Origin: Prochilodus magdalenae
Lineage: Eukaryota; Chordata; Actinopteri; Characiformes; Prochilodontidae
NCBI GenBank assembly: GCA_024036415.1
Contig: JAMWET010001910.1
Coordinates: 43,501 to 107,500, forward strand
DNA: 64,000 nucleotides
Direction: 5' to 3'
The notes beneath the pieces are model-generated. The model saw nothing but the letters and a program-made list of their open reading frames with translations, made no database searches and was not told the origin of the DNA. Within the stretch, counting starts at the first letter, position 1. The number at the start of each line of letters is the position of its first letter. Below are positions 14,492 through 62,763 of the stretch, in pieces. Both the position numbers and the translations under genes were made by a program.

Positions 14492-17400
14492 ATATGAATG
14501 AAACACAGGAAAAAAAACTCATCCCAGTTTGACAATATAATTTCATCTAAATTAATTGGCATGTTCAGTTATTTGTATTTTTATAATAAAATAAAATATT
14601 TTCTTAATTTTTTAATAATTTTTTATTTTTAAGAAGATTTTAAAATTTGGATCCTAAAAGACAGTGTTTCAGACCAAGAAATGAGTCTAAAGCTTGTCAC
14701 TTCTACGCCTAAGTTTCAAGAGGTTAGCATTATTTAGGAGTCAGTGTGGCCTTATGTAGGCGGCCACCAATCAGTAACGTAGAGACCAGTCTTGGTAAAG
14801 AACCTGACAGTAGTTCCAAATTAATTTTAGAACGTGAAGCTAGAGAGAGGCACCTTGTTCCAGGGCACGTTGATATTGAAGCCAGCTCCTTTGCCCTTAC
14901 CCACACTATCATAGTCAGACTCTGCAAGGTTGGGCCAGAAACGCTGGTGCTCATAGCGATGCCATGAGAAATACAGCACACTATGAAACCCAGAGGAACA
15001 CAAGAAAAGTGAGAGAACAAACAAAGGTGAGAAGCTGCTTGGTTCAAATAAAAAGATACTTCTGCAATGCTACATTAGGTCTTGAACAGCCACCCGATTT
15101 GCTGAAATCAAGCTTACCTTGGATCTTCCTCAAAGCAGTACTGAACTCCCTGGCCATGGTGAATATCCCAATCCACGATCAACACCCTGAACACACAGAG
15201 AGCCTCCTCAACCAACACAAATCAGCTCAGTTCCCCTAAAAAAGCTCACTTCTTCTGCTCTCTCATTACTTCACTCCTTCAAGATACACTTGTGTCAGTT
15301 GGAGAATCGCTTGTGTACATCCTCAAAAATTAAGGTGCAGTACGCCCAGAAAAGCTAGGGGGAGTAAAACCTCATGAAGTCCACAATTACCTGCATCTGT
15401 ATGATGTGTCTACACATGACCATTCAACAAGTATATCTACATCCTTACCTGTTCACGTTGTAGTGCTTTTTGGCATAAAGAGCAGCAATGGCCACATTGT
15501 TGAACACGCAGAAGCCATTGGCTGCACTCCGTTGGCTGTGATGACCAGGAGGCCTGTAGAAAAAAGAAGAAAGAAAAATATAACACAGTTGTGCATTTGT
15601 GACTAAATAAAGATATACTACTACTGCAAAAACTACTACTACCAATATTAATAATAGCAACAATTATATAAGGGTAACACTTCACATTATATAGTAGAGT
15701 TATTGAGCATCCTGGAATGCATAGGGCTGTATAACAGGCCTCTCTTTGTATCACTTTTCCCATTACTCCAGCATTCATTTAGTTGCAATAAGTAAATTTG
15801 TTAAGGAGTGTTTATTTAGATATGTAATGTACATATAAATGTATATAGATTGTGCATGTAAACTTATTTTTGATCAAGGTTTATTTTATGTTTATGTAAA
15901 TTTAGTTATTTTGACAAAATAATGGTGGTGGTGGAGTGGTGGGAGCCTGGTGGGAGTGTATTTGTTATTTCTGTATATGTTGGTACTGTGCACCTTGCTT
16001 TTAGCTCAGTTATAAAATAATAAAAAATGTTCAAAAAAAAATAATTCTGGTCTTTATGCTTACCTTACAAGGGCCATTCCATTTCTCACTTTCCCTGCCA
16101 TTACACTGTCCACCAGCTGCAGTGTGGCACCAATAGCCAGCTTAGCACAATGGTAGATATTCTACATATATAACAAAAACACAGGAATACACAAGAAAAG
16201 CAATTTTTAGGCAAATTTGTTTGGCTTAGGACACAGCTATAGTTGTGTGTAAATTATTGGACACCCCTGGTCAATTTGGGTTCAACTACATAAACAGAAA
16301 ATATGCATTAAAAATGTGTGTTCTCTGTAAACGATATGTTACTGTTATTTGAGATGGGGGCTCTAACTTTTGCGTACACCTGTACAGTAAGTAATCCTTA
16401 CAGGATGGAAGTAGACATCTCCATATTGCTGAGTGAAGGTCATCAGATCCTCCAAGGACAAGTAAGGCGTCTGTTTCACTGCTTCAAGATATTCTTTGCT
16501 GCAAAGAACAGCAAACAGTGGAAAACAGGACATTACACAACACATTAAGACCATCAGTTCTGTTTAATTTGGCTAATAATCTGTCACGTTCATACACAGC
16601 AAGAACCAAGGCTTTAAAACGGACAGAAATAAAATGTGCTGAACAGTCTGTGGGAAACTGTGGAACATTATTTGCATAGGGCAGCATCTGAAACAGTATC
16701 TGAAAAATTCATAGTAAATTGACCAACAAAAATGCTCCATAATTCCTTGGGATGAAATCTCTTTACATCCACATACATTTCAACATTCCGGCAGATTTCA
16801 ACAGGGGTAGCACCTGATTGACAGGTGGTGTTTCATTTCTTTGTTACGCCTGTACACCTGGAAAGTTCTTTCAGGTTTTCACTTCACAGAGTAAACAGAA
16901 TTATTCTGTTATATGCCAATAATTACTATTAATATGAGCTAATTCTGTCATCTAATAAAATAATGGGGAACTCCACTGAGTTTACAAATATTCTACATAA
17001 TTAATTAAGATGTAAAGAGAGTCATTGAAACGCTTTGGTGTGAAATGCTTCGTTTACAGAAATGTATTACTGAGTCTGAATTGTTCCAGTGGCAGTAATG
17101 GGAACCAAATGTCTGAAGATTACAGAAAGTAATAATTACATGAACCAGTATGAATACTTAGCCTATATGGCCGAGACTTTGTTTTATGAAAGTCCTGTGA
17201 TAAAGTAATGTAACAAAAGGTCTTATAATTCAGCTATTTATGATTTATTTATGAAGGAGAATTTGTCTATTCATGGTGTGGATTTACTGGCTGGTTTGTA
17301 TAGTAAATGAAACGGCTGTATTTGTGTTGTACACATTGGGATGCCTAGTTCCCATCACCACCACTGTAAAGACATCAGAGTTAGTTTCTTTATTACTGCA

Positions 17401-20216: not shown

Positions 20217-20875
20217 GCATATAGTTCCTCTACTACATATTCACAGACTCTCCCAGGTCAGATTCATCTCTAATTTACAATGTGACATCAGTCACAGGAA
20301 CAGAGTAAGCAGGAACTGAGAAGCTTCCTAAATACAACTTCTGATTGTGAACAAAGTTTCACATCACATTGCACATGAAGGATCGAAATAACAAGGTATC
20401 CGGTCTCAGCACAGATCAAATAATAATAAAAAAAATCCGCCCATACTAAAACTAGCGCAAAAGACACAGAACTACACAAAAATAAGTTCATCTTAGTCTT
20501 TAAAATTTCAGTAGTCTTCACACCGAAGAGTAAGAAACAGCATCCTTATTTTGGTAATCCTTTAAACTTTGAACTAACTTGGGATTTATATTGAAATTAC
20601 TATTTAGCCATTTGGAAAAAAAAACATTTATTTTATGTAAAGAATGTAAATACAAAATTGTCATCCAATTGTACTTGCAGAGGTGATGCCTGCATACTTA
20701 CTAAAATAAATGTTAAAGTTAGTTCCAGTAATTACATGTAACATCTCCATATATTTTATCATAAAAGTCTCATCTATTCAGAACAGGCAGAAAGGCACAA
20801 ATAAGTACAAGAAGTATCAGCTGTGAGAAGTCTGCACTCGGCACAGTAACTGCAGAGATAAAATAGGTGAAGATT

Positions 20876-23800
20876 TCAGAATCCAAGATCCTCTTCTTTG
20901 ACCTGGCAGCCCAGCAGACAATTACCCACACGAACACACTCAGAAAGACTGACCACTAGAAAACACACAAAAAACATCATCATCATCATCACCATCACCA
21001 TCATCATCACCATCATCACCGCAGTAAAACAGGCTTAATAATGGACTTTAGAACTAGCAATGTATTTTGTAAATGTTTTGGGTTATATTCTGTGATTTCT
21101 GATGAACTGAGAGTTTACCTTTCTGGTTGCGGATCCATGTCACAGCTTTCATGGCCACAAGCTGCCACTCAACCTGAGCGTCCATCTTAAACCCGTGCAA
21201 CCAGATCAGAGCCAGAACTGTAGCCCAGACCCCCTTCTCCACCTGAACACAAAACCAGGACATACAAGATAATACAATGTTGTGACAGTTAAAGCTACAG
21301 TAAAATCAGGTCAGGACCCATTCACTTCCAATTAATGAGATCTTTTCATCATATGACCATGAAAGAGAGTTGTTCGACAAGCTTCAGCAGTCATTGTTTT
21401 ACTGCTCATGTCATTGGTAACCTCTCTTCAAATGATCTACTCAAGAGCAGGACCTCCATCATAACTGACAAGAATACGATGTCTGGGTCTAGCTAGTTAG
21501 CCTGCTAACTTCAGTAGATACCTCTGCAGCATGATGCACTGATGCTTTTGACATACATTGTTTTTGTGACATTCACATTTAGCAGTTTTGCAGGGTTTGA
21601 AACTAAACGTCTTTTTGTAAATGTCTGTATTATACTACACCTAGAGACCACCAGAACATCATGAAGCCAGTTTTACTGACACACTTCTCATATTTAATAC
21701 ATCACTAACCTGAGCGGGGGTCTCCTTGACCACTTCCTTTTCTGTCTTCCCAAACACTTCCACCAGGGCACTGTCCATTTCCCAGCAGCCTGAAGCCTTC
21801 TGGAGGGAGATGAGCTCCAGCAGGGGGTCTTTAACAGCCTCCACAGTTTCTACCGAGGCACATGCATCTGCCACTAGAAACACACATACACACAGATTCA
21901 CGTCGTTCAGATTCAGCTGACACTCTGTGCTCAAGTGTATGTCATCAAGTGTGTAATCATCTTTCGATCTGAAATACAAATTTATTTAACGATGATGAAC
22001 AATTTCACTTCATTGTGCCAACATTTCTGATTGCTTACTGTATCACACCTCAACACTAAAATATTATAAAGGCAAATGAAGCACATACTGTGGAAACCAA
22101 GTCACAAAAAATCTGTTAATGGAATATTATTTGACTGAACTGAGTGCTGAGTTGGATCTAGCCATCTGGGTGCACTATGAACAATGACTTCCTAAATTAG
22201 GTACATCTATAACTGGCTAATTTGTATACTGGTGAAGACTAGATGCTTGTTTGTGTTACAGTTTAAATGACGGATGATCTTCTCAGCATTGATCTTGATC
22301 CAGGGTTAGGGTCTAAATGTGGCGGCTAAGACGACAGTGTTAGTGATTTATTTGTTTTACTTCATATTCAGGTTCATTTAAAATAGTTTACTTCTAAGGT
22401 GACTTATCTTCAGGCTTCGCACAGCCAGCTCTTCCTTCTAAACATTACATTTTCATTTAACTCTATGAACAATAACATAATCTTATCATACCATATCACT
22501 CCTGTCACGCTTCCGGGTTTCTCCATTTTCCCTCTGTAGCTCTGCCGAATACTATTTACTTTCACCTGCACCTCATTTCCCATTGCAATTTCCCATTTCT
22601 GTATATAAACCCTCAGTCACAATCCCACATTGCCAAGTATTGCCAAACCTGGTTTGCATACTGAGCTGACTCTCCTGTTACTCTCTGCTGGTTATCCCTG
22701 GTCCCAACTCTTCTTTTTATGATTCTCTCTCTCTGACTCTCTCTCTCTCACTCAGATTCTCCCTTCTGGTTTTGTTTGCTAACGTGTTCCACTCAAAAGG
22801 TGCACAGGAAATGATCTACTCTTAAAAGGAATGGGCCAAGAAAGGAACATAGCAAATCGTTTCAAGGAACAGACTGTGGCTAAGGAATTTGAGGAAAAGT
22901 ACCCCTCTCTTAGCTCACTCTGTTTATAAGATATGTCGTGTTTTCTCCACTTAACTGAATATGTAACGGATGGATGTTCTTTTTTTATTTGTGTTGTTTG
23001 TTTTAACTCCATTATTCCATTTAGTTCTACGATGCTGGTGTTGTGTCTCGATATACTCATTATACGGCCTTGAGAAAGGAACTTTAGCCTTCAAGTTGTG
23101 ACTAAGGGCGGCACAGTAAGTAATATAACACACCTGTCAATAAAAGTGTTGCAATGTCTTGCTAATTAAGAGTGACTAGGGCTTTTTAAACAAAATAACT
23201 TTCACTGGAACAGTAAGTAATTCTGACTGATTCCCCAGTGAAAAAAATGAGAAGAAAAGAGAGGAGTTAAAAAAGCCATCAGCTCTGTTGGTCTTCTAGA
23301 TTTGAGCTTGATCAGCTAATTTAGTTCACATACTTAATGCAGTAGTTACACAGTCAGTGTCATAAAAGTCACTAATATGGTCATTATTTCGAGTGAACAA
23401 TAATTCGGGTGATTCACCAAAGACTCATTGTATTTAGTGTGCTTATAGGTTTTAACAAGGCTCACAGATATTTATGGGAAAATAAAGGTCATGTTTTACG
23501 CCCCCTTGTGGATATACATTGATTAACTTGATCAATGCATCATCATACCAGCTAAAAATACAGGGGTTTCAAAATCTGCAACACAGAATTGTTATACACA
23601 GTAGTTACTAAACCAGCTCATATTATCAACTAAGCAGCCACTGAAATGACACACCTTTAAACAGACACTTTTATTGATATGTGTGTTTAGCTAATGGTGC
23701 TGTTAGCCACACAGATCAATACAAAGTTGTATTTTAACTCTACTCTGTATATATGTGGCTAGATCCAAAATAGCCATTTGTTAGACATATTACGCAGCGT

Positions 23801-26800
23801 TTGGGTGCAGGAGTGGGTACTTTAAGTGCATTGTTGTGCACTAGCAATGGAGTAGGACAACATTTCTGATTCACCCTAGCAAAGGGACGTACAAAAGTTC
23901 TAGCTTCGTACTAAACAAAATCAGAAATCACTTAGAAGCCTTAATGGAACATGGTGTGTTTAAATTGGTCTGTCAGCATACATCAGTAGAGTGTGTATAA
24001 AAATAAATGAATAACTGTTTATTAGAATCAAATATAAGTCGGCAAAATAAGTAACATATATTTACACAAATTCATCTTCGGTGAACCACCTTTGGGAAGA
24101 TAAAATGAGAAAAACATGTTTGGACAGTCAAATCTGTACACACTGTGAAAGTGCACCACATTACCTGTACATCATAATTAGACGTTCTACAGTAGCCTAG
24201 TGTCAATGACCTATATGCCTGACACATGACAATGTCATGCACGCCATGTGGTTGTGCTCATTACTGTAATCACCGCAATTTCTTTTTTTCTTTTAAATAG
24301 GGGAATTGGGGCAATGGTGATAAAGCACCAAACAACAAAGAACACAAAGACCCCATCCATGTAACAATCCACACTAATAAAGTTGGAACTGATATGTCTG
24401 CTGGTTCCTTATTTCATCAGTAGATGTCAGTAGGTGTAAAAAAAAATTAACAAATAAAACTGTAGTAATTTTTTTAAACTGAAATGACTACTTATCAAAG
24501 TAGATTAAAATATTTATTTACCCATGGCCATCATTGGTGGAGCACCTTTGGAGGGATAGAAATAGAAAGGAAACAATACAGATTTACAAATTAATACATA
24601 ATAAAGTAGTGCATAATTAATAAATATGTTTATAAAAGTAATTTATAATTTGCTGGTTCCTTATTTCATCAATTGATGTCAGTAGGTGTAAAAAAACTGT
24701 AGTTATTTTATGGCTTTAAACTAAAATGACTATTTATTAAAGTAGATTAAAATATGTATTTACCCATGGGCTGCATTGGTAGAGAAACTTAGGAAGGATA
24801 GAAATAGAAAGGGAAAAATACATATTTACAAATGTATACATAATAAAGTAATGCATAAGTAATAAATATGTTTAGTAAAGTAATTTAAAAAGTAATTAAA
24901 TCTTTTGTTTATATTGTTACATAATTAGTACTTCAAATTTTACTCCATTTAAATCAATGCAAAATAAGTGTTATTCGTTTACCTATTGGAGCACATTTGG
25001 TAGGATAAAAAAAGGGAAACAATTTACACATTTACAAATGTACACATAATTAAGAAAAGTATAAGTAATTATCTTCCTTAAATAAAAAATAAAAAAAACA
25101 TCAATCTGGCATTAATATTACAACAAAATTAGTACATACAAGTTTACTCCACTTAAAATCATAATAAAATCTGATACATACATAGTACATCCATAGGCGG
25201 CAGCGGATAAACTTTCATCACTTTGGAAAGATAAAAATATATATATTAAAAACTGGTGAGGCAGGGGGTTGACATTGTCACCTTCCAGCTTGGACATGTC
25301 TCAGTGAAATCGCCTTGGACAGCAGACATTAGGAATGAATTTAGAAATACTCAAATTCTTTTGTCCTGCATATCAGACCTACAGTACAAAACCTGGCTGC
25401 AACTTTCGACTCTAAGCTCTGTTTTAATCCTAAATGTAAACACTAAAGTAAAGTAAGTCACTAAAGTATATTTTGTATCATATCAAATCAGAAATAATGC
25501 TAAACTTGATCATGAATTTGCTACAAGCAGAGCTGGTTACAGTAATGCCCTTCTTACAGAGCTTCTTACAAACAGTGCCATCTTATCAGCAAAATCGCTG
25601 ATTTAACTATACAGGCTAAATGTATTTTTTAACTATAGATTGTGAAATTCACTTATTAGTTCTGGAAAGCACAGATGGCAGAGTGATGATCACACTGAAT
25701 ACTCTCTACTCGTTAAGACAATCTCAACTCTGAGCTGTTTTTAGGAAACTGTTAACTGACCAAACATTTTTTTGTTGTTAATCATAAACATATTTATCCT
25801 CTACATAGCTTTGCAGACTGAAACGCTTGCAGTACTGTGTTCAGTAATAAGGACATTTAGTAAGTAGTATTTTCTGCAACTTACTTCCCCCAGGGACAGT
25901 ACCATATGATATTTTCACTGGTCCACCAAAACCAAACATCCCTAAACAGGAGCACATAAAAACAAGACACCAAGTTCCCGATGTGTTGCACATGATGTGT
26001 TACTACTCAAAGCAAAAGCACAGTTATAGCAGATGATTTATATAAAGCAACACTGACCTGGTGCAGGGACTCTCCTCCTCAGCAGTGGTCCTTGCACAGC
26101 CTCTCCACTGCCCTTGTGAACAGCTATGAAGGCTGTGTGTGCACTGCCCACTCCAGCCTGCACACTGAGCTCCACCACTCTGGCCTTTAAAGCCTCTTTG
26201 TCAGCTCCCTCAATCTGCTCCTCCCGTTCCAGAGAGCGGATCAGAGAGCGGGCACCCAGTCTGTGGATGGAGAATCTGAACAGACAGGCAGTGTTTAAGT
26301 TGTATGAAGGTGATTAAGCTAAATGATTATATATGCTAACAGGGTCAGCTAATCTCACAAAGAAAACAGACTGTGCCAATGAGACCCACAAGGACCATGG
26401 GGCAGTGACTGCCTCCAGGGCTTCGCTACTGTTCCACAACAAGGCCACTTTATTATACCTGACATTTGATCCCAGTGGTCGAGATGCGGTTCAGGGTTAG
26501 TAGCGAAACAGAGAACTGCCTCTTGGCTCAGGTGTGCTGCCAAATAATGAGAGCTCGCTGATCCTGATTTGACTTTGAGAATGGAGGCACCAATAAAAGA
26601 AGCAAAGATAGAGAAAAAGAGAAAGCAGAACGAAAGAAAAGGGAAAGAAAAAGAGAGACGAGCAGCAGCAAGACTGATGAGCTGAAAAGCTTGTGGGCAC
26701 TAAGTTCCTTTTTAGTTGGGCATGTCGTTTGTGCTGGAGTCTTTTCTGGCTAACACGCCCATCTTTCCCCCAGGGTGCCACAGGCATTGCTACACAGGAA

Positions 26801-40414: not shown

Positions 40415-43400
40415 TCAGAATCCAAGATCCTCTTCTTTAACTTGGCAGCCCAGCAGACCATTACCCACACGAACACACTCAGAAAGACTGTCCACTGAAA
40501 AAAAAACACATACGCCATCATCATCATCATCACCATCATCACCATCACCATCACCATCATCATCATCACCGCAGTAAAACAGGCTTAATAATGGACTTTA
40601 GAACTAGCAATGTATTTTGTAAATGTTTTGGGTTATATTCTGTGATTTCTGATGAACTGAGAGTTTACCTTTCTGGTTGCGGATCCATGTCACAGCTTTC
40701 ATGGCCACAAACTGCCACTCAACCTGAGCGTCCATCTTAAACCCGTGCAACCAGATCAGAGCCAGAACTGTAGCCCAGACCCCCTTCTCCACCTGAACAC
40801 AAAACCAGGACATACAAGATAATACAATGTTGTGACAGTTAAAGCTACAGTAAAATCAGGTCAGGACCCATTCACTTCCAATTAATGAGATCTTTTCATC
40901 ATATGACCATGAAAGAGAGTTGTTCGACAAGCTTCAGCAGTCATTGTTTTACTGCTCATGTCATTGGTAACCTCTCTTCAAATGATCTACTCAAGAGCAG
41001 GACCTCCATCATAACTGACAAGAATACGATGTCTGGGTCTAGCTAGTTAGCCTGCCAACTTCAGTAGATACCTCTGCAGCATGATGCACTGATGCTTTTG
41101 ACATACATTGTTTTTGTGACATTCACATTTAGCAGTTTTGCAGGGTTTGAAACTAAACGTCTTTTTGTAAATGTCTGTATTATACTACACCTAGAGACCA
41201 CCAGAACATCATGAAGCCAGTTTTACTGACACACTTCTCATATTTAATACATCACTAACCTGAGCGGGGGTCTCCTTGAGCACTTCCTTTTCTGTCTTCC
41301 CAAACACTTCCACCAGGGCACTGTCCATTTCCCAGCAGCCTGAAGCCTTCTGGAGGGAGATGAGCTCCAGCAGGGGGTCTTTAACAGCCTCCACAGTTTC
41401 TACCGAGGCACATGCATCTGCCACTAGAAACACACATACACACAGATTCACATCGTCCAGATTCAGCTGACACTCTGTGCTCAAGTGTATGTCATCAAGT
41501 GTGTAATCATCTTTCGATCTGAAATACAAATTTATTTAACGATGATGAACAATTTCACTTCATTGTGCCAACATTTCTGATTGCTTACTGTATCACACCT
41601 CAACACTAAAATATTATAAAGGCAAATGAAGCACATGCTGTGGAAACCAAGTCACAAAAAATCTGTTAATGGAATATTATTTGACTGAACTGAGTGCTGA
41701 GTTGGATCTAGCCATCTGGGTGCACTATGAACAATGACTTCCTAAATTAGGTACATCTATAACTGGCTAATTTGTATACTGGTGAAGACTAGATGCTTGT
41801 TTGTGTTACAGTTTAAATGACGGATGATCTTCTCAGCATTGATCTTGATCCAGGGTTAGGGTCTAATTTATTTGTTTTACTTCATATTCAGGTTCATTTA
41901 AAATAGTTTACTTCTAAGGTGACTTATCTTCAGGCTTCGCACAGCCAGCTCTTCCTTCTAAACATTACATTTTCATTTAACTCTATGAACAATAACATAA
42001 TCTTATCATACCATATCACTCCTGTCACGCTTCCGGGTTTCTCCATTTTCCCTCTGTAGCTCTGCCGAATACTATTTACTTTCACCTGCACTTCATTTCC
42101 CCTTTCAGTATTTCTCTCACTTAAACTCTACTCTGTATATATGTGGCTAGATCCAAAATAGCCATTTGTTAGACATATTTCGCAGCGTTTGGGTGCAGGA
42201 GTGGGTACTTTAAGTGCATTGTTGTGCACTAGCAATGGAGTAGGACAACATTTCTGATTCATCCTAGCAAAGGGATGTACAAAAGTTCTAGCTTCGTACT
42301 AAACAAAATCAGAAATCACTTAGAAGCCTTAATGGAACATGGTGTGTTTAAATTGGTCTGTTGGCTCCTTATTTCATCAGTATACACCAGTAGATGTGCA
42401 GTGTGTATAAAAATAAATGAACAACTAACTGTTTATCCAAATCAAATATAAGTCGGCAAAATAAGTATATATTTACCCATGTCAGCCATCATTAATTTAG
42501 GTCCAGCTATAGGAAGATAAAAAATAGAAACAAAAAATGGGGATGATTTTGTGCAATAAATACATATTTATTTGTAAATGTTTAATCTAGGCTTTAATAG
42601 ATGCTCTTATCCACAGATAGTGGGTAGTTTAAACATGTACATGTACTGTAATGAGAAACTAATGTATAGAAACATTTAGAAGATCAGTACTTACAATTTT
42701 AGTCCACTCAAATGTCAAAGCAAAAAAATAAATAAATAAATATATATATATATATATATATATGTATATTTACACAAATTCATCTTCGGTGATCCACCTT
42801 TGGGAAGATAAAATGAGAAAAACATGTTTGGACAGTCAAATCTGTACACACTGTGAAAAGGCACCACTTTACCTGTACATCATAGTTAGAAATTCTACAG
42901 TAGCCTAGTGTCAATGACCTATATGCCTGACACATGACAATGTCATGCACGCCATGCGGTTGTGCTCATTACTGTCATCACTGCAATTTTATGGCTTTGA
43001 ACTAAAATGACTACTTATTAAAGTTTACTCATGTCAGATTAAAATAATATTTATTTACCCATGGCCATCATTTGTGGAGCACCTTTGGAGGGATAGAAAC
43101 AGAAAGGAAAAAATCCAGATTTACATATTAATACATAATAAAGTAGTGCATAAGTAATAAATATGTTTATAAAAGTAATTTATAATTTGCTGGTTCCTTA
43201 TTTCATCAGTTGATGTCAGTAGGTGTAAAAAACTGTAGTTATTTTATTGCTTTAAACTAAAATGACTATTTATTAAAGTTTATTCATGTCAGATTAAAAT
43301 AATATTTATTTACCGAACTTTGGTAGAGCACCTTTGGAGGGATAGAAATAGAAAGGAAAAAATACATATTTACAAATGTATACATAATAATGCATAAGTA

Positions 43401-46400
43401 ATATGTGTATAAAAGTAATTTAAAAATAATTTATTGAAAGTAATTAAATCTAGTGTTTATATTGTTACAAGATTAGTATTTTAATTTTTGGCTAAAGAAT
43501 TACACATTTACAAATGTACACATAATTAAGAAAAGTATAAGTAATTATCTTTATAAATATTTAAAAGAAAAAAAACATCAATCTTGCATTAATATTACTA
43601 TAGAATTAGTACATACAGTGTTACTCTACTTAAAATATAAATAAAATATGTTACATACATTTAGCCATGCGCCGCATCGGTGGGGCACTATGGAACATCA
43701 CTTTGGAAAGATAAAAAAAATATATATTATAAAAGAAAAACTGGTGGGGCAGGGGGTTGACACTGTCACCTTCCAGCTTGGACATGTCTCAGTGAAATAG
43801 CCTTGGACAACAAACATTAGGCTAAGCAGCTACACAAACCACTGGCTCAGATAAATATACAGCAAGGTCTGTGTAAGAGTCCCGCAAGGTTCAGTGCTTG
43901 GGCTTTTTCCCTTGTACACATTACTCAATTAATTTCAAAAAACTTTTTACAGCTGAATCAAGACAAAGCTGAAATACTAAAATTCTTTTGTCCTGCATAT
44001 CAAACCTAAAGTAATCTCCTTCCAGAAACATTTGTGAAATGTAGCTCTGGCACAGTCAATTTGATGAAAGTGTTTAGCAGATTTGCAGCATGTGTTTAAT
44101 TGTACTGTGCTGCGGGTCTTGTTGTCCATTGTAGTGATATCATCTGGATCGATCAACTGGAAAGCACAGATGGCAGAGCGATGACCACACAGAATACTCT
44201 CTACTCGTTAAGACAATCTCAACTCTGAGCTGTTTTTAGGTTAACTGACCAAACATTTAGTTGTTAATCATAGACATATTTATCCTCTACATAGCTTTGC
44301 AGACTGAAACAATTGTTGCTAACAAGTCAGTGAGCTGTCACCGCTTAGCTGTTGACCAATTGTATCTAGTGTGCTTATAAGTTTTAACAAGGCTCACAGA
44401 TATTCATGGGAAAATAAGATCATGATATACGCCCCCTTGTGGATATAGATTGATTAATTCTGTGATGCATTTGTGATCCCAATGTACTTCAAATTATGCA
44501 AGAAATGTGTCTAGTTTGCTGCAGTTGAGAAGCTTATTAAGGATTAACGAGATTCTTTCATTTATACTTTACAGTCAGTTATTTAATTCTTGCTCTTAGA
44601 TGTCGGTTACATGATAAAAGAAATTAAAGAAACTGTAGAAAAGTAAGTACAAGAGCAGTACTGTGTTCAGTAATAAGGACATTTAGTAAGTAGTATTTTC
44701 TGTAACTTACTTCCCGCGGGGGCAGTACGACATGCCATTGCCACTGGTCCACCAAAACCAAACATCCCTAAACAGGAGCACATAAAAACAAGACACCAAG
44801 TTCTCGATGTGTTGCACATGATGTGTTACTACTCAAAGCAAAAGCACAGTGATAGCAGATGATTTCTATTAAGCAACACTGACCTGGTGCAGGGACTCTC
44901 CTCCTCAGCAGTGGTCCTTGCACAGCCTCTCCACTGCCCTTGTGAACAGCTATGAAGGCTGTGTGTGCACTGCCCACTCCAGCCTGCACACTGAGCTCCA
45001 CCACTCTGGCCTTTAAAGCCTCTTTGTCAGCTCCCTCATTCTGCTCCTCCCGTTCCAGAGAGCGGATCAGAGAGCGGGCACCCAGTCTGTGGATGGAGAG
45101 TCTGAACAGACAGGCAGTGTTTAGGTTGTATGAAGGTGATTGAGCTAAATGATTATAAATGCTAACAGGGTCAGCTAATCTCACAATGCAGTTTACACTG
45201 ACTGGCAATTTTATCAGGTACATCCACCATACGCGTGCAGTTTAAGATAAGATGAGATAATCCTTTATTGATCCCACAGTGGGGAAGTTTGCAACCTTTT
45301 GTAGGCTTACAACTACCAACTCTCGACCATCATTAACCATCAACCCCATTTAATCCACACTGTTTACATGTACTGTCTACTTTATTAAACACACCTACAT
45401 TGTTGCTTCACCTGTAAAAATAGAGATAACAGATTGTGCCAATGGGACCCACAAGGACCATGGGGCAGTGACTGCCTCCAGGGCTTCGCTACTATTCCAC
45501 AACAAGGCCACTTTATTATACCTGACATTTGATCCCAGTGGTCGAGATGCGGTTCAGGGTTAGTAGCGAAACAGAGAACTGCCTCTTGGCTCAAATGTGC
45601 TGCCATATAATGAGAGCTCACTGATCCTGATTTGACTTTGAGAATGGAGGCACCAATAAAAGAAGCAAAGAGAGAAAAGAGAAAGCAGAATAAAGAAAAG
45701 GGAGAGAAGGAGAGAGACGAGCAGCAGCAAGACTGATGAGTTGAAAAGCTTGTGGGCACTGAGTTCCTTTTTAGTTGGGAATGTCGTTTGTGCTGGAGTC
45801 TTTCCTGGCTAACGCCCATCTTTCCCCCAGGGTGCCACAGGTGTTGCTACACAGGAACTACAATTCGTGGTTATAAATTTTAGCTGTTCATCTGTGGTTG
45901 GTTTTTTGACAACTTGCTATCTTTCGCTGGTGTATTTTCTTAACCTACCAGTAAAACATCACAGCACCATCACAATCGTACCAGCCTGACACAATCATAC
46001 CACCACAACACACACTACCAAGCTTTAATGTAGAAGTTAAACCCACACAGCTCAGTTTGACTGCTGTAGTTATTCTTATTGTCACATCATAATATCAGCA
46101 GATGAAAAGAGGGGGAGAAGAGGGGGATTACAGGGTGTATGTAAGTGAATGTTACCCGGTATTCTCAGCAGGTCTGAGGGAGAAGCTGAGCGTGCTGGTG
46201 ACTTCTTGATCTACTAGACGGTACTTCACTGTTACAGTCCCCTCAGAGTCTGCGCTCTGATTCTACAGACAGAAAGAAAAGTCGCTGTGTCATTACAAGT
46301 CATTCAGTCACAAAATAAAAAGACTCATGCCTGAAAGCTGCAGCGTATCACCAAAATCAAGTTCTGAATGTTTCTGGCTTACTTAAGTGACTGTAAGTTA

Positions 46401-60044: not shown

Positions 60045-61183
60045 GTGTGTTAATCATATGATCAAGTATTAATCATGTGGCAAATATTTGTATGGACCTC
60101 ACAGGATCTTTTCACACTTCTGTTTTATCTTTTCTCAAAAACGTAAAGAGCTGATGCCGTTTGTCTTCTGGTTGTTGAAATAAATTATGATGTGTCCAAA
60201 TTCCAAAAGTGAGCTGCATCGATCTCCATCTGTGTCTACCCAGTGGTTGTGTTGTCTCGAATGGAAGATGTTAGCTGTGATGTGTTGATTGGTCCATTTG
60301 TACAGCAATATACATATATTTATATTCACATACTTCATATAACACTAATTCAGTTATATGTGACATTTCTGGCACTCTACAAACTACTGCCTTCACCTGA
60401 AGACAGGCCTTCAGACCACTGTAGGGTGCTCCATGGCCCACTGGTGGTCCGTGACACACAGGTTGAGAAACCCTGATGTAGACGAAGGTGACAGCAGCAC
60501 TCTGGCCTGGAAGCAGACTCCTAAAGATCTCCTCACTCTCCTCCAGTAGGAAAGCCTGATCTCCTGAAGCAACTACATCACCATACTCCTCCTGAGCCTG
60601 ATACACACAAAACACTTAAATCTGGAGCTCTACAGTAATGTCTGTGTATGGCAATACACTTTATGACTCCATGCTTATTAACATGTTTGTGTGCTTATAA
60701 GTTCATTTTGAAGAATTGAATCAATAAAGCCCGACAGTGCGAGTGTCTTTACTGATTTATGTCCAGATATTTTCAGTAGTCAAAGTTACTCTCTGGGTGT
60801 GGCAAAGCGTAAAACTCATGTGTTTCCCAGTTATTACAAATATCTGTCTTAAATCTTTATGGTATGTGTATCTTGTAAAATTCGCTCAACCAGTAAAACA
60901 GGATGTAAGCCACCAGCTGCAGTGAAAAGCACACATTACAGAAGACCTGCTAAGATCGAACTGATACTTGCTTCCCTACTGAGTCAGTCTTTAAAACATT
61001 AGCTATGGTATCAGGGCTCTAAAGCAGCCAGGCTAAGCTGTATATGAACGGTGCTGGTCTGGTGCCTCTGTTCCTCTTTCTCAGCTTTTATCCCCTGGTC
61101 TTCAATCTTGGCACTGACAAACACAGCCTCCAGGGGGCGCCCTTTAATTACATACTGCAGAGTGGAGCTCCCGGCACATTATA

Positions 61184-62763
61184 CAGTGAGGAAAATAAGT
61201 ATTTGAACACCCTGCGACTTTGCAAGTTCTCCCACTTAGAAATCATGGAGGGTTCTGAAATTTTTATCCTAGGTGCATGACCACTGTGAGAGACATAATC
61301 AAAAAAAATATCCAGAAATCACAATGTATGATTTTTTAATCATTTATTTGTGTGTTACTGCTGCAAATAAGTATTTGAACACCTGTGAAAATCAATGTTA
61401 ATATTTGGTACAGTAGACTTTGTTTGCAATTACAGAGGTCAAACGTTTCCTGTAGTTTTTCACCAGGTCTGCACACACTGCAGCAGGGATTTTGGCCCAT
61501 TCCTCCACACAGATCTTCTCCAGATCAGCCAGGTTTCTGGGCTGTCGCTGAGAAACACAGAGTTTGAGCTCCCTCCAAAGATTTTCTATAGGGTTTAGGT
61601 CTGGAGACTGGCTAGGCCACTCCAGAACCTTGATATGCTTCTTACGGAGCCACTCCTTGGTTATCCTGGCTGTGTGCTTTGGGTCATTGTCATGTTGGAA
61701 TACCCAGCCACGACCCATCTTCAATGCTCTAACTGAGGGAAGGAGGTTGTTCCCCAAAATCTCGCAATACATGGCCCCGGTCATCCTGTCCTTAATACAG
61801 TGCAGTCGTCCTGTCCCATGTGCAAAAAAACACCCCCAAAGCATGATGCTCCCACCCCCATGCTTCACAGTAGGGATGGTGTTTTTGGGATGGTACTCAT
61901 CATTCTTCGTCCTCCAAACACGGCGAGTGGAATTAAGACCATCTGACCACAGAACTTTCTCCCATGACTCCTCTGGATCATCCAAATGGTCATGGGCAAA
62001 CTTAAGACAGGCCTGGACGTGTGCTGATTTAAGCAGGGGAATCTTCCGTGCCATGCATGACTTTAAACTATGAAGCCTTAGTGTATTACCCACAGTAACC
62101 TTGGAAACAGTGGTGCCAGCTCTCTTCAGGTCATTGACCAGCTCCTCCCGTGTAGTTCTGGGCCGATTCCTCACCTTTCTTAGAATCATTGATACGCCAC
62201 GAGGTGAGATCTTGCATGGAGCCCCAGTCCGAGGGAGATTGACCGTCATGTTTAGCTTCTTCCATTTTCTAATAATTGCTCCAACAGTTGATCTTTTTTC
62301 ACCAAGCTGCTTGGCAATTGCCCCGTAGCCCTTTCCAGCCTTGTGGAGGTCAACAATTTTGTCTCTGGTGTCTTTGGACAGCTCTTTGGTCTTAGCCATG
62401 TTAGTAGTTGGAGTCTTACTGATTGTGTGGGGTGGACAGGTGTCTTTATGCAGCTAACGACCTCAAACAGGTGCTTCTAATTTAGAATAATAAGTGGGAT
62501 GGAGGTGGAGTTTTTAGAGGCGGACTAACAGGTCTTTGAGGGCCAGAATTTTTGCTGATTGGCAGGTGTTCAAATACTTATTTGCAGCAGTAACACACAA
62601 ATAAATTATTAAAAAATCATACATGGTGATTTCCAGGTTTTTTTTAGATTATGTCTCTCACAGTGGACATGCACCTAAGATGAAAATTTCAGATCCCTCT
62701 ATGATTTCTAAGTAGGGGAACTTGCAAAGTCGCAGGGTGTTCAAATACTTATTTTCCTCACTA
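61184..62763 (-). mobile_element. Full-length Tc1/mariner element (1580 bp)
   Basis: Flanked by TA at 61182-61183 and 62764-62765. The ends are inverted repeats: the left begins CAGTGAGGAAAATAAGTATT and the right ends AATACTTATTTTCCTCACTA. The similarity runs for more than 100 bases inward, with a few mismatches. A second inner repeat (AATAAGTATTTGAACACCTG and its complement) lies at about 61367-61386 and 62568-62587. One long transposase frame fills the middle. The element sits in the decayed vwa5a unit, next to the exon 2 remnant. Confidence 0.9.
61398..62399 (-). CDS. Tc1-family transposase, open frame of 333 residues
   Basis: Cuts and pastes its own element at TA sites in the nucleus. 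The N-terminal half carries two helix-turn-helix (paired-like) domains: [20 protein letters not shown], then [17 protein letters not shown] KxxK-rich linker lies between them. The catalytic triad is visible: Asp153 in LWSDGLN, Asp237 in [10 protein letters not shown] and Glu272 in DLNPIENLW. There are 34 residues between the last two, the DD34E spacing of Tc1. Length is close to the usual 340. The block after Asp153 normally reads SDE(S/T)K but is SDGLNST here, so activity is doubtful although the frame is open. Confidence 0.9.

Follow-up and report, generated by a model that had tools for sequence, protein, structure and literature searches.

Two tandem vwa5a genes and the proteins they encode

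The window, by which we mean the whole 64,000-nucleotide stretch of Prochilodus magdalenae DNA that was analysed, carries two tandem vwa5a genes, copy A at approximately 20.9-34.3 kb and copy B at approximately 40.4-55.7 kb. Each keeps its first and last coding exon. Self-BLAST of the window aligns A with B in 14 blocks; eight are 94-97% identical and six, mainly intron, are 73-91% identical. Within the 3' block the differences are densest at 20784-20840 (15 in 57 nt), just 3' of the last coding exon.

Beyond the window, a search of the contig with protein sequences revealed two further copies, C and D. P0010, an annotated P. magdalenae protein, matches copy D (contig 130.5-141.6 kb) at mostly 97-100% per exon. 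The N-terminal part of a second annotated P. magdalenae protein, P0072, matches copy C (contig ~113-125 kb) at mostly 94-100%, and its last ~120 residues have no match adjoining that copy. The A and B proteins are both absent among the best 120 of 2498 matches to the joined protein. On the minus strand, window 60475-60600 holds a fragment of a further VIT-type exon, which matches P0010 at 61% over 49 aa. Pfam finds nothing in the surrounding ORF, and by its sequence the fragment appears to be the remnant of another vwa5a copy. The neighbourhood also includes an open 351-aa frame of a Tc1/Sleeping-Beauty-type transposase (61401-62453, minus strand), a second Tc1-type piece on the plus strand from 18735, and a piece of a histone deacetylase domain belonging to a neighbouring gene (15451-15663, minus strand; PF00850, E 3.9e-13).

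Exons for the same VIT-VWA stretches as in the relatives are present in A and B, and so are C-terminal exons. In all four annotated relatives scanned, Pfam detects VIT (E 2e-34 to 3e-33) and VWA_3 (E 6e-23 to 6e-22). An AF2 model of the 742-aa P0010, built with 45 sequences, replaced a first model whose mean pLDDT was 55. It gives the linker, residues 596-634, a pLDDT of ~27-30, which is only a proxy for disorder, while the C-terminal helices (637-731) mostly reach 84-92. According to this model, the exon array described below encodes a strap, predicted to be disordered, that connects the VIT/VWA half to a helical C-terminal domain.

A disordered loop of this kind has been discussed in a Dictyostelium homologue, where, according to the available text, it tethers a C-terminal domain for which autoinhibition of the VWA domain has been proposed (PMC10539598). 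The statement in the initial annotation that no function is described for such a linker was consequently too strong. Docking of the C-terminal domain on VWA in the fish protein is putative and follows the prediction made for Dictyostelium. Among solved structures the best sequence match is PARP4, a VIT-VWA relative (E 1.4e-48). The searches did not establish a relationship between the C-terminal domain and the MVP-binding domain of PARP4. In a profile alignment the end of PARP4 is collinear with the VWA5A C-terminal domain at -2.3 bits, which is insignificant by itself. A profile of the C-terminal domain alone gives no PARP4 match, and PARP4 is absent among the 50 matches listed in fold searches with the whole model, which are dominated by the VIT-VWA body.

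Micro-exon arrays in copies A and B

The linker region of copy A is organized as follows.

26058..26276, minus strand: last conserved exon before the linker (FSIHR...VPAP), from its ORF and donor; phase 1 end GCACCAG/GTCAGT; upstream boundary approximate
25885..25941, minus strand: linker exon L0, 57 nt, phase 1-1, MFGFGGPVKISYGTVPGG; signals TTTAG/.../GTAAGT
25182..25220, minus strand: micro-exon U1, 39 nt, phase 1-1, MKVYPLPPMDVL, donor GTATGT; aligned with the 42-nt U1 of copy B
24983..25000, minus strand: U2, dead by unit comparison, acceptor CCAAAT, exon remnant TGTGCTCCAATAG/GTAAAC
24764..24787, minus strand: micro-exon U3, 24 nt, SLPMQPM; CTAAG/.../GTAAAT
24522..24545, minus strand: micro-exon U4, 24 nt, APPMMAM; CCAAAG/.../GTAAAT
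24066..24089, minus strand: micro-exon U5, 24 nt, GSPKMNL; CCAAAG/.../GTAAAT; chimeric, 5' part as in B U5 and 3' intron as in B U6
21710..21873, minus strand: first C-terminal-domain exon; two phase-1 acceptors, giving 21873 or 21867 as first base (6 nt apart)

The array proper (24.05-25.26 kb) holds four usable phase 1-1 micro-exons of 39, 24, 24 and 24 nt and a fifth unit, U2 (near 24985), that is dead: its acceptor reads CCAAAT instead of CCAAAG and has lost the AG. The repeats that the initial annotation placed in this interval are indeed present. A direct-repeat search pairs 24473-24648 with 24715-24890 (88% identity over 176 nt, spacing 242), and self-BLAST of the window aligns 24399-24648 with 24651-24890 at 267 bits. 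A 73-nt segment occurs in three copies, 242 and 206 bp apart, and further repeat copies lie at spacings of 204, 252 and 456 bp. The array was not reported by TRF at score 50. Each unit had been described as holding a 24-nt exon with a CCAAAG or CTAAG acceptor and a GTAAAT donor. This is true of three units out of five (24764, 24522, 24066), but not of U1, with its 39 nt and GTATGT, nor of the dead U2. A further candidate exon, SKDDYTLDDIHLSTECQLNLNDVNL, was dropped, its phase 1 reading running into a stop (judged by eye).

Copy B carries five micro-exons, of 42, 18, 24, 24 and 30 nt, and no U2-like exon was seen in it.

44711..44767, minus strand: 57-nt linker exon L0; differs from A at 9 positions, 8 of which are nonsynonymous
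43659..43700, minus strand: micro-exon U1, 42 nt, MFHSAPPMRRMAK
43314..43331, minus strand: micro-exon U3, 18 nt, ALPKF
43059..43082, minus strand: micro-exon U4, 24 nt, APQMMAM
42774..42797, minus strand: micro-exon U5, 24 nt, GSPKMNL
42477..42506, minus strand: micro-exon U6, 30 nt, GPKLMMADM, absent from A
42479..42765, minus strand: stretch of about one exon+intron unit, missing from A; junction inside the donor-site homology GTAAATATA
41260..41423, minus strand: first C-terminal-domain exon; 3' end set by analogy with copy A

The two arrays share the same build: exon and flanking intron repeat in tandem, and the exons are symmetric, multiples of three and of one phase. In copy A all 32 subsets of the five linker exons (L0 and the four micro-exons) read stop-free into the C-terminal exon, and in copy B all 128 combinations, the two acceptors being counted, are open and in frame. 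The proposal that every unit is symmetric and that any combination could be spliced thus stands for the live units, all of them phase 1-1, but not for U2. The donors of the micro-exons all score below that of L0 (2.0-6.3 versus 8.6 bits); U5 has a weak donor of 2.0 bits. For this reason some micro-exons may rarely be used.

Comparison of the two arrays points to a recombination event. The acceptor and exon of A U5 equal those of B U5 at 73/74 nt, up to and past the donor. On the 3' side of this donor, 323/362 nt (89%) match the intron that follows B U6, and not the B U5 intron. The matching partner switches at the common donor sequence GTAAATATA. One exon+intron unit of B is therefore absent from A, with the frame kept, and A U5 is a chimera of two older units. 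From the chimeric junction we infer that the unit was lost in A, by deletion at matching donor sites, rather than gained in B. That the units repeat as blocks, and that A is without one such block of B, supports the earlier claim that exon and intron were amplified together.

A scan for further phase 1-1 exons gave more candidates on the coding than on the other strand (A, 9 versus 4; B, 7 versus 3; D, 4 versus 0; C, 4 versus 2). It required multiples of three, a property for which B U6 and the two D exons (see below) were thus selected. Since the scan is noisy, only candidates with homology between units, copies or relatives are relied upon.

The linker in paralogs and in related fish

Paralog D has an array at the same intron position. 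Contig 133154-132558 matches 132749-132070 in a 685-nt self-alignment at 77.5%, and the region (contig 132260-132785) contains two 36-nt phase 1-1 exons, Lys/Ser-rich, encoding MRSKSILKAGS and KKFKSAHKASY. The repeat blocks start at three donor sites, 133154, 132749 and 132259, the first of which is the donor of the preceding conserved exon. This suggests that the D array grew from that donor and its intron. The arrays of A and B have no BLASTN match to the linkers of C and D, and the D array is independent of that of A and B, though at the same place. Paralog C (~113-125 kb) shows no convincing array, with 4 candidates versus 2 on the opposite strand. A transposase frame lies inside its linker intron (contig 114018-115044), and P0072 (1012 aa) carries this frame at the linker position, probably as an annotation artefact.

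Relatives were taken from the best 120 of 2498 matches to the joined protein, all of them fish as far as named. Among these best 120, 109 pairs of proteins are nearly identical at their two ends, sharing 400 or more N-terminal and 60 or more C-terminal residues, and 100 of the 109 differ only in the linker, a count to be read with the facts that the criterion itself favours differences late in the protein and that the pairs overlap, are not independent and come mostly from Triplophysa and Tachysurus. Most of the pairs are taken as variants of one gene. Within the same 120 proteins, linker-only differences are found in six species (Colossoma, Pygocentrus, Tachysurus fulvidraco, Neoarius, Triplophysa rosa and Misgurnus), and 30 pairs show a single clean insertion, one of which (6 aa) falls inside the C-terminal domain. 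Tachysurus has the 8-aa cassettes GMCLSKSL and GGFCTNSF, Triplophysa a 12-aa cassette, LYLRGSQLPVFG, Misgurnus an 18-aa repeat and Colossoma a 2-aa step, KC. A second donor lying 6 nt further downstream, such as GGCTAAAT/GTATGT in U1 of copy B, could account for the last. These annotated isoforms gain or lose 8-residue and other whole cassettes at this place, as expected from the initial proposal of steps of about 8 residues without change of frame. RefSeq "isoform X" names are predictions, and the isoforms of the relatives, being database predictions, count as indirect support.

In 106 of the best 120 of 2498 matches (the anchors had no match in the other 14, which were left out) the linker measures 11 to 147 residues, with a median of 73. 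Compared with the first 600 residues of the proteins, these linkers are enriched in Met, Pro and Cys. Annotated relatives have different repeated motifs at the linker place, with little similarity between species. In P0022 of Brachyhypopomus gauderio the same junction carries a repeated unit of ~55-60 residues (GSYIAIHKGSGKAVKGPLLKRNVPV...QQQQGLPAS), from which it appears that larger blocks can also repeat there.

Might the units be fossil exons, multiplied by tandem duplication of an intron and never spliced in? The weak donor of U5 and the death of U2 would fit such pseudo-exons, as would the deposited protein of paralog D, P0010, which joins the flanking exons directly and contains neither D micro-exon. 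In copy A, a transcript joining exon 14 directly to exon 15 could be one isoform among several. Against pseudo-exons, all live units have an open frame and paired splice signals, and these persist in A and B although two exons differ in length, by 3 and by 6 nt; being two events only, this is weak evidence alone. Finally, annotated Colossoma proteins do contain similar Pro/Met cassettes (GPVPMMAMG, GAPPMLADM). We consider the pseudo-exon explanation quite improbable.

Divergence of the linker and its possible role

Over 15 pieces of constitutive exons, the A/B differences amount to 10/1515 nonsynonymous and 16/465 synonymous sites (pN 0.0066, pS 0.034). These values look as expected under purifying selection and give no sign of gene decay. 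L0 differs at 8/42 nonsynonymous and 1/15 synonymous sites, and its near introns at 2/110 positions. The nonsynonymous excess of L0 has a Fisher p of 5e-9 against the constitutive exons and of 6e-4 against the near introns, L0 having been noticed first and then tested. The differences in U4 (1/24) and U5 (1/24) are about as frequent as in their upstream introns (5/100 and 6/100). By these comparisons L0 is anomalous, and U4 and U5 are not.

This divergence raises the possibility of a hypervariable interaction surface under diversifying selection, for which the micro-exons would be the raw material. PARP4 offers a parallel in exon 30, a disordered exon reported, in the accessible part of the study, to be under positive selection (PMC4038475). 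Besides the L0 excess, such a reading is favoured by the exon being more divergent than the upstream 100-nt flank in 6/8 comparisons, 3 of them with p < 0.05, some comparisons sharing exons; L0, U1 and the D pair stand out in this respect. However, pooling both flanks leaves a weak excess (odds ratio 1.47, chi2 5.1, the comparisons not being independent), and for A/B alone there is none (1.09, chi2 0.09). The five A/B exons together differ at 30/159 positions versus 79/542 in their flanks (p 0.21). The flank controls are imperfect, since rearrangements interrupt the downstream flanks and the upstream ones include splice signals; the downstream 100-nt flank of L0, with 36/100 differences, extends past the end of the aligned block. 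A general rule that exons evolve faster than introns was rejected, the A/B effect vanishing with both flanks, and positive selection across the array as a whole is not established. Nor is a pathogen partner known. Diversifying selection on such a surface thus strikes us as unlikely. The same holds for a bolder version, doubtful in our eyes, which extends to the tandem vwa5a genes of otophysan fish: recombining arrays, Pro/Met-rich in A and B versus Lys/Ser-rich in D, would make hypervariable straps under diversifying selection, that is, an intracellular, splice-diversified recognition surface analogous to the PARP4 exon and built like SmPoMuc (see below).

Neutral drift is a less remote explanation, albeit one we still hold to be somewhat unlikely. 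Symmetric micro-exons would be tolerated in an unconstrained disordered linker, and the array would expand and decay without function. The dead U2 and the unit lost between two young tandem copies are in keeping with drift, and so are the lack of BLASTN matches between the A/B arrays and the C/D linkers, the little likeness between species and the ordinary divergence of U4 and U5. On the other hand, paralog D has an independent expansion at the same place, where relatives show different repeated motifs; the L0 changes exceed those of the near introns and almost all alter an amino acid; and the live exons have kept the frame.

The explanation that we prefer, with a probability of about 0.55, is that a recombining array of symmetric micro-exons diversifies the disordered tether of a VWA5A-type protein that is intracellular. 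The initial interpretation, a tunable linker, is plausible and supported in part. What changes is an exon together with its intron. Such units multiply, die by loss of a splice site, or go by recombination between matching splice-site or intron sequences, and since the live units are symmetric the frame survives their gain or loss. In transcripts, the majority of cassettes are probably optional, in which case one gene would make straps of varied length and sequence. The strap may in turn govern the ease with which the C-terminal domain contacts the VWA domain, assuming the interaction proposed for the Dictyostelium homologue, and cassette number would then shift the balance of autoinhibition modestly. 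Points that weigh against this explanation are the low donor scores of the micro-exons, the dead U2, the lack of both D micro-exons in P0010 and the small expected effect of length: the cassettes would extend the strap by at most 56 (A) or 65 (B) residues, for which a polymer estimate suggests that effective concentration changes only several-fold.

An array of this kind probably lets both cell and evolution alter the length and sequence of the strap. If the cassettes are spliced combinatorially, this would be a vertebrate tether whose length and composition depend on the number of exons rather than on residue substitution, and tandem gene copies would show directly how units come and go. Such a case would provide a natural length series for studying the influence of tether length on intramolecular regulation, in a family of tumour-suppressor candidates that is still poorly understood. 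The array also suggests a reason for the many predicted isoforms of vwa5a-like genes in these fish.

Among the matches listed from the open-access literature, no account of a vwa5a micro-exon array was found. Several known systems share some of its features. Dictyostelium Vwa1 and human VWA5A have the same domain order, with a helical C-terminal domain on a disordered loop, and the available text on them describes neither a micro-exon array nor splice variation of the loop (PMC10539598). PARP4 is likewise a VIT-VWA protein with a disordered, fast-evolving segment. As far as the accessible text goes, however, its exon 30 is a single large exon without micro-exons, included in all isoforms found by its authors (PMC4038475).

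The micro-exon genes (MEGs) of schistosomes come nearer in exon structure. According to the text available, their micro-exons are symmetric and can be skipped without change of frame, most of these genes encode a signal peptide, and up to 75% of the coding sequence may reside in micro-exons (PMC4015677). Symmetric micro-exons are thus common to both, but in vwa5a the linker alone is so built.

The closest of all known systems, judging from the parts of the literature available, is SmPoMuc of Schistosoma mansoni, in which exon and intron likewise repeat in tandem in clustered genes. There, a 27-bp exon with its introns lies in tandem genomic repeats of ~1 kb, up to ~20 of them, whose number varies between the clustered genes (PMC2576457). 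The proteins contain a variable count of 9-aa repeats, and splicing adds variation (PMC2576457, PMC4015677). SmPoMuc has a mucin repeat domain adjoining the signal peptide, units of ~1 kb and far more copies, whereas vwa5a has a short strap in an intracellular protein, units of ~200-490 bp, 2-6 linker units and much diverged cassettes. What the vwa5a genes would add is the same trick, a frame-neutral array of short exons known from schistosome genes, within an ordinary intracellular protein of a vertebrate.
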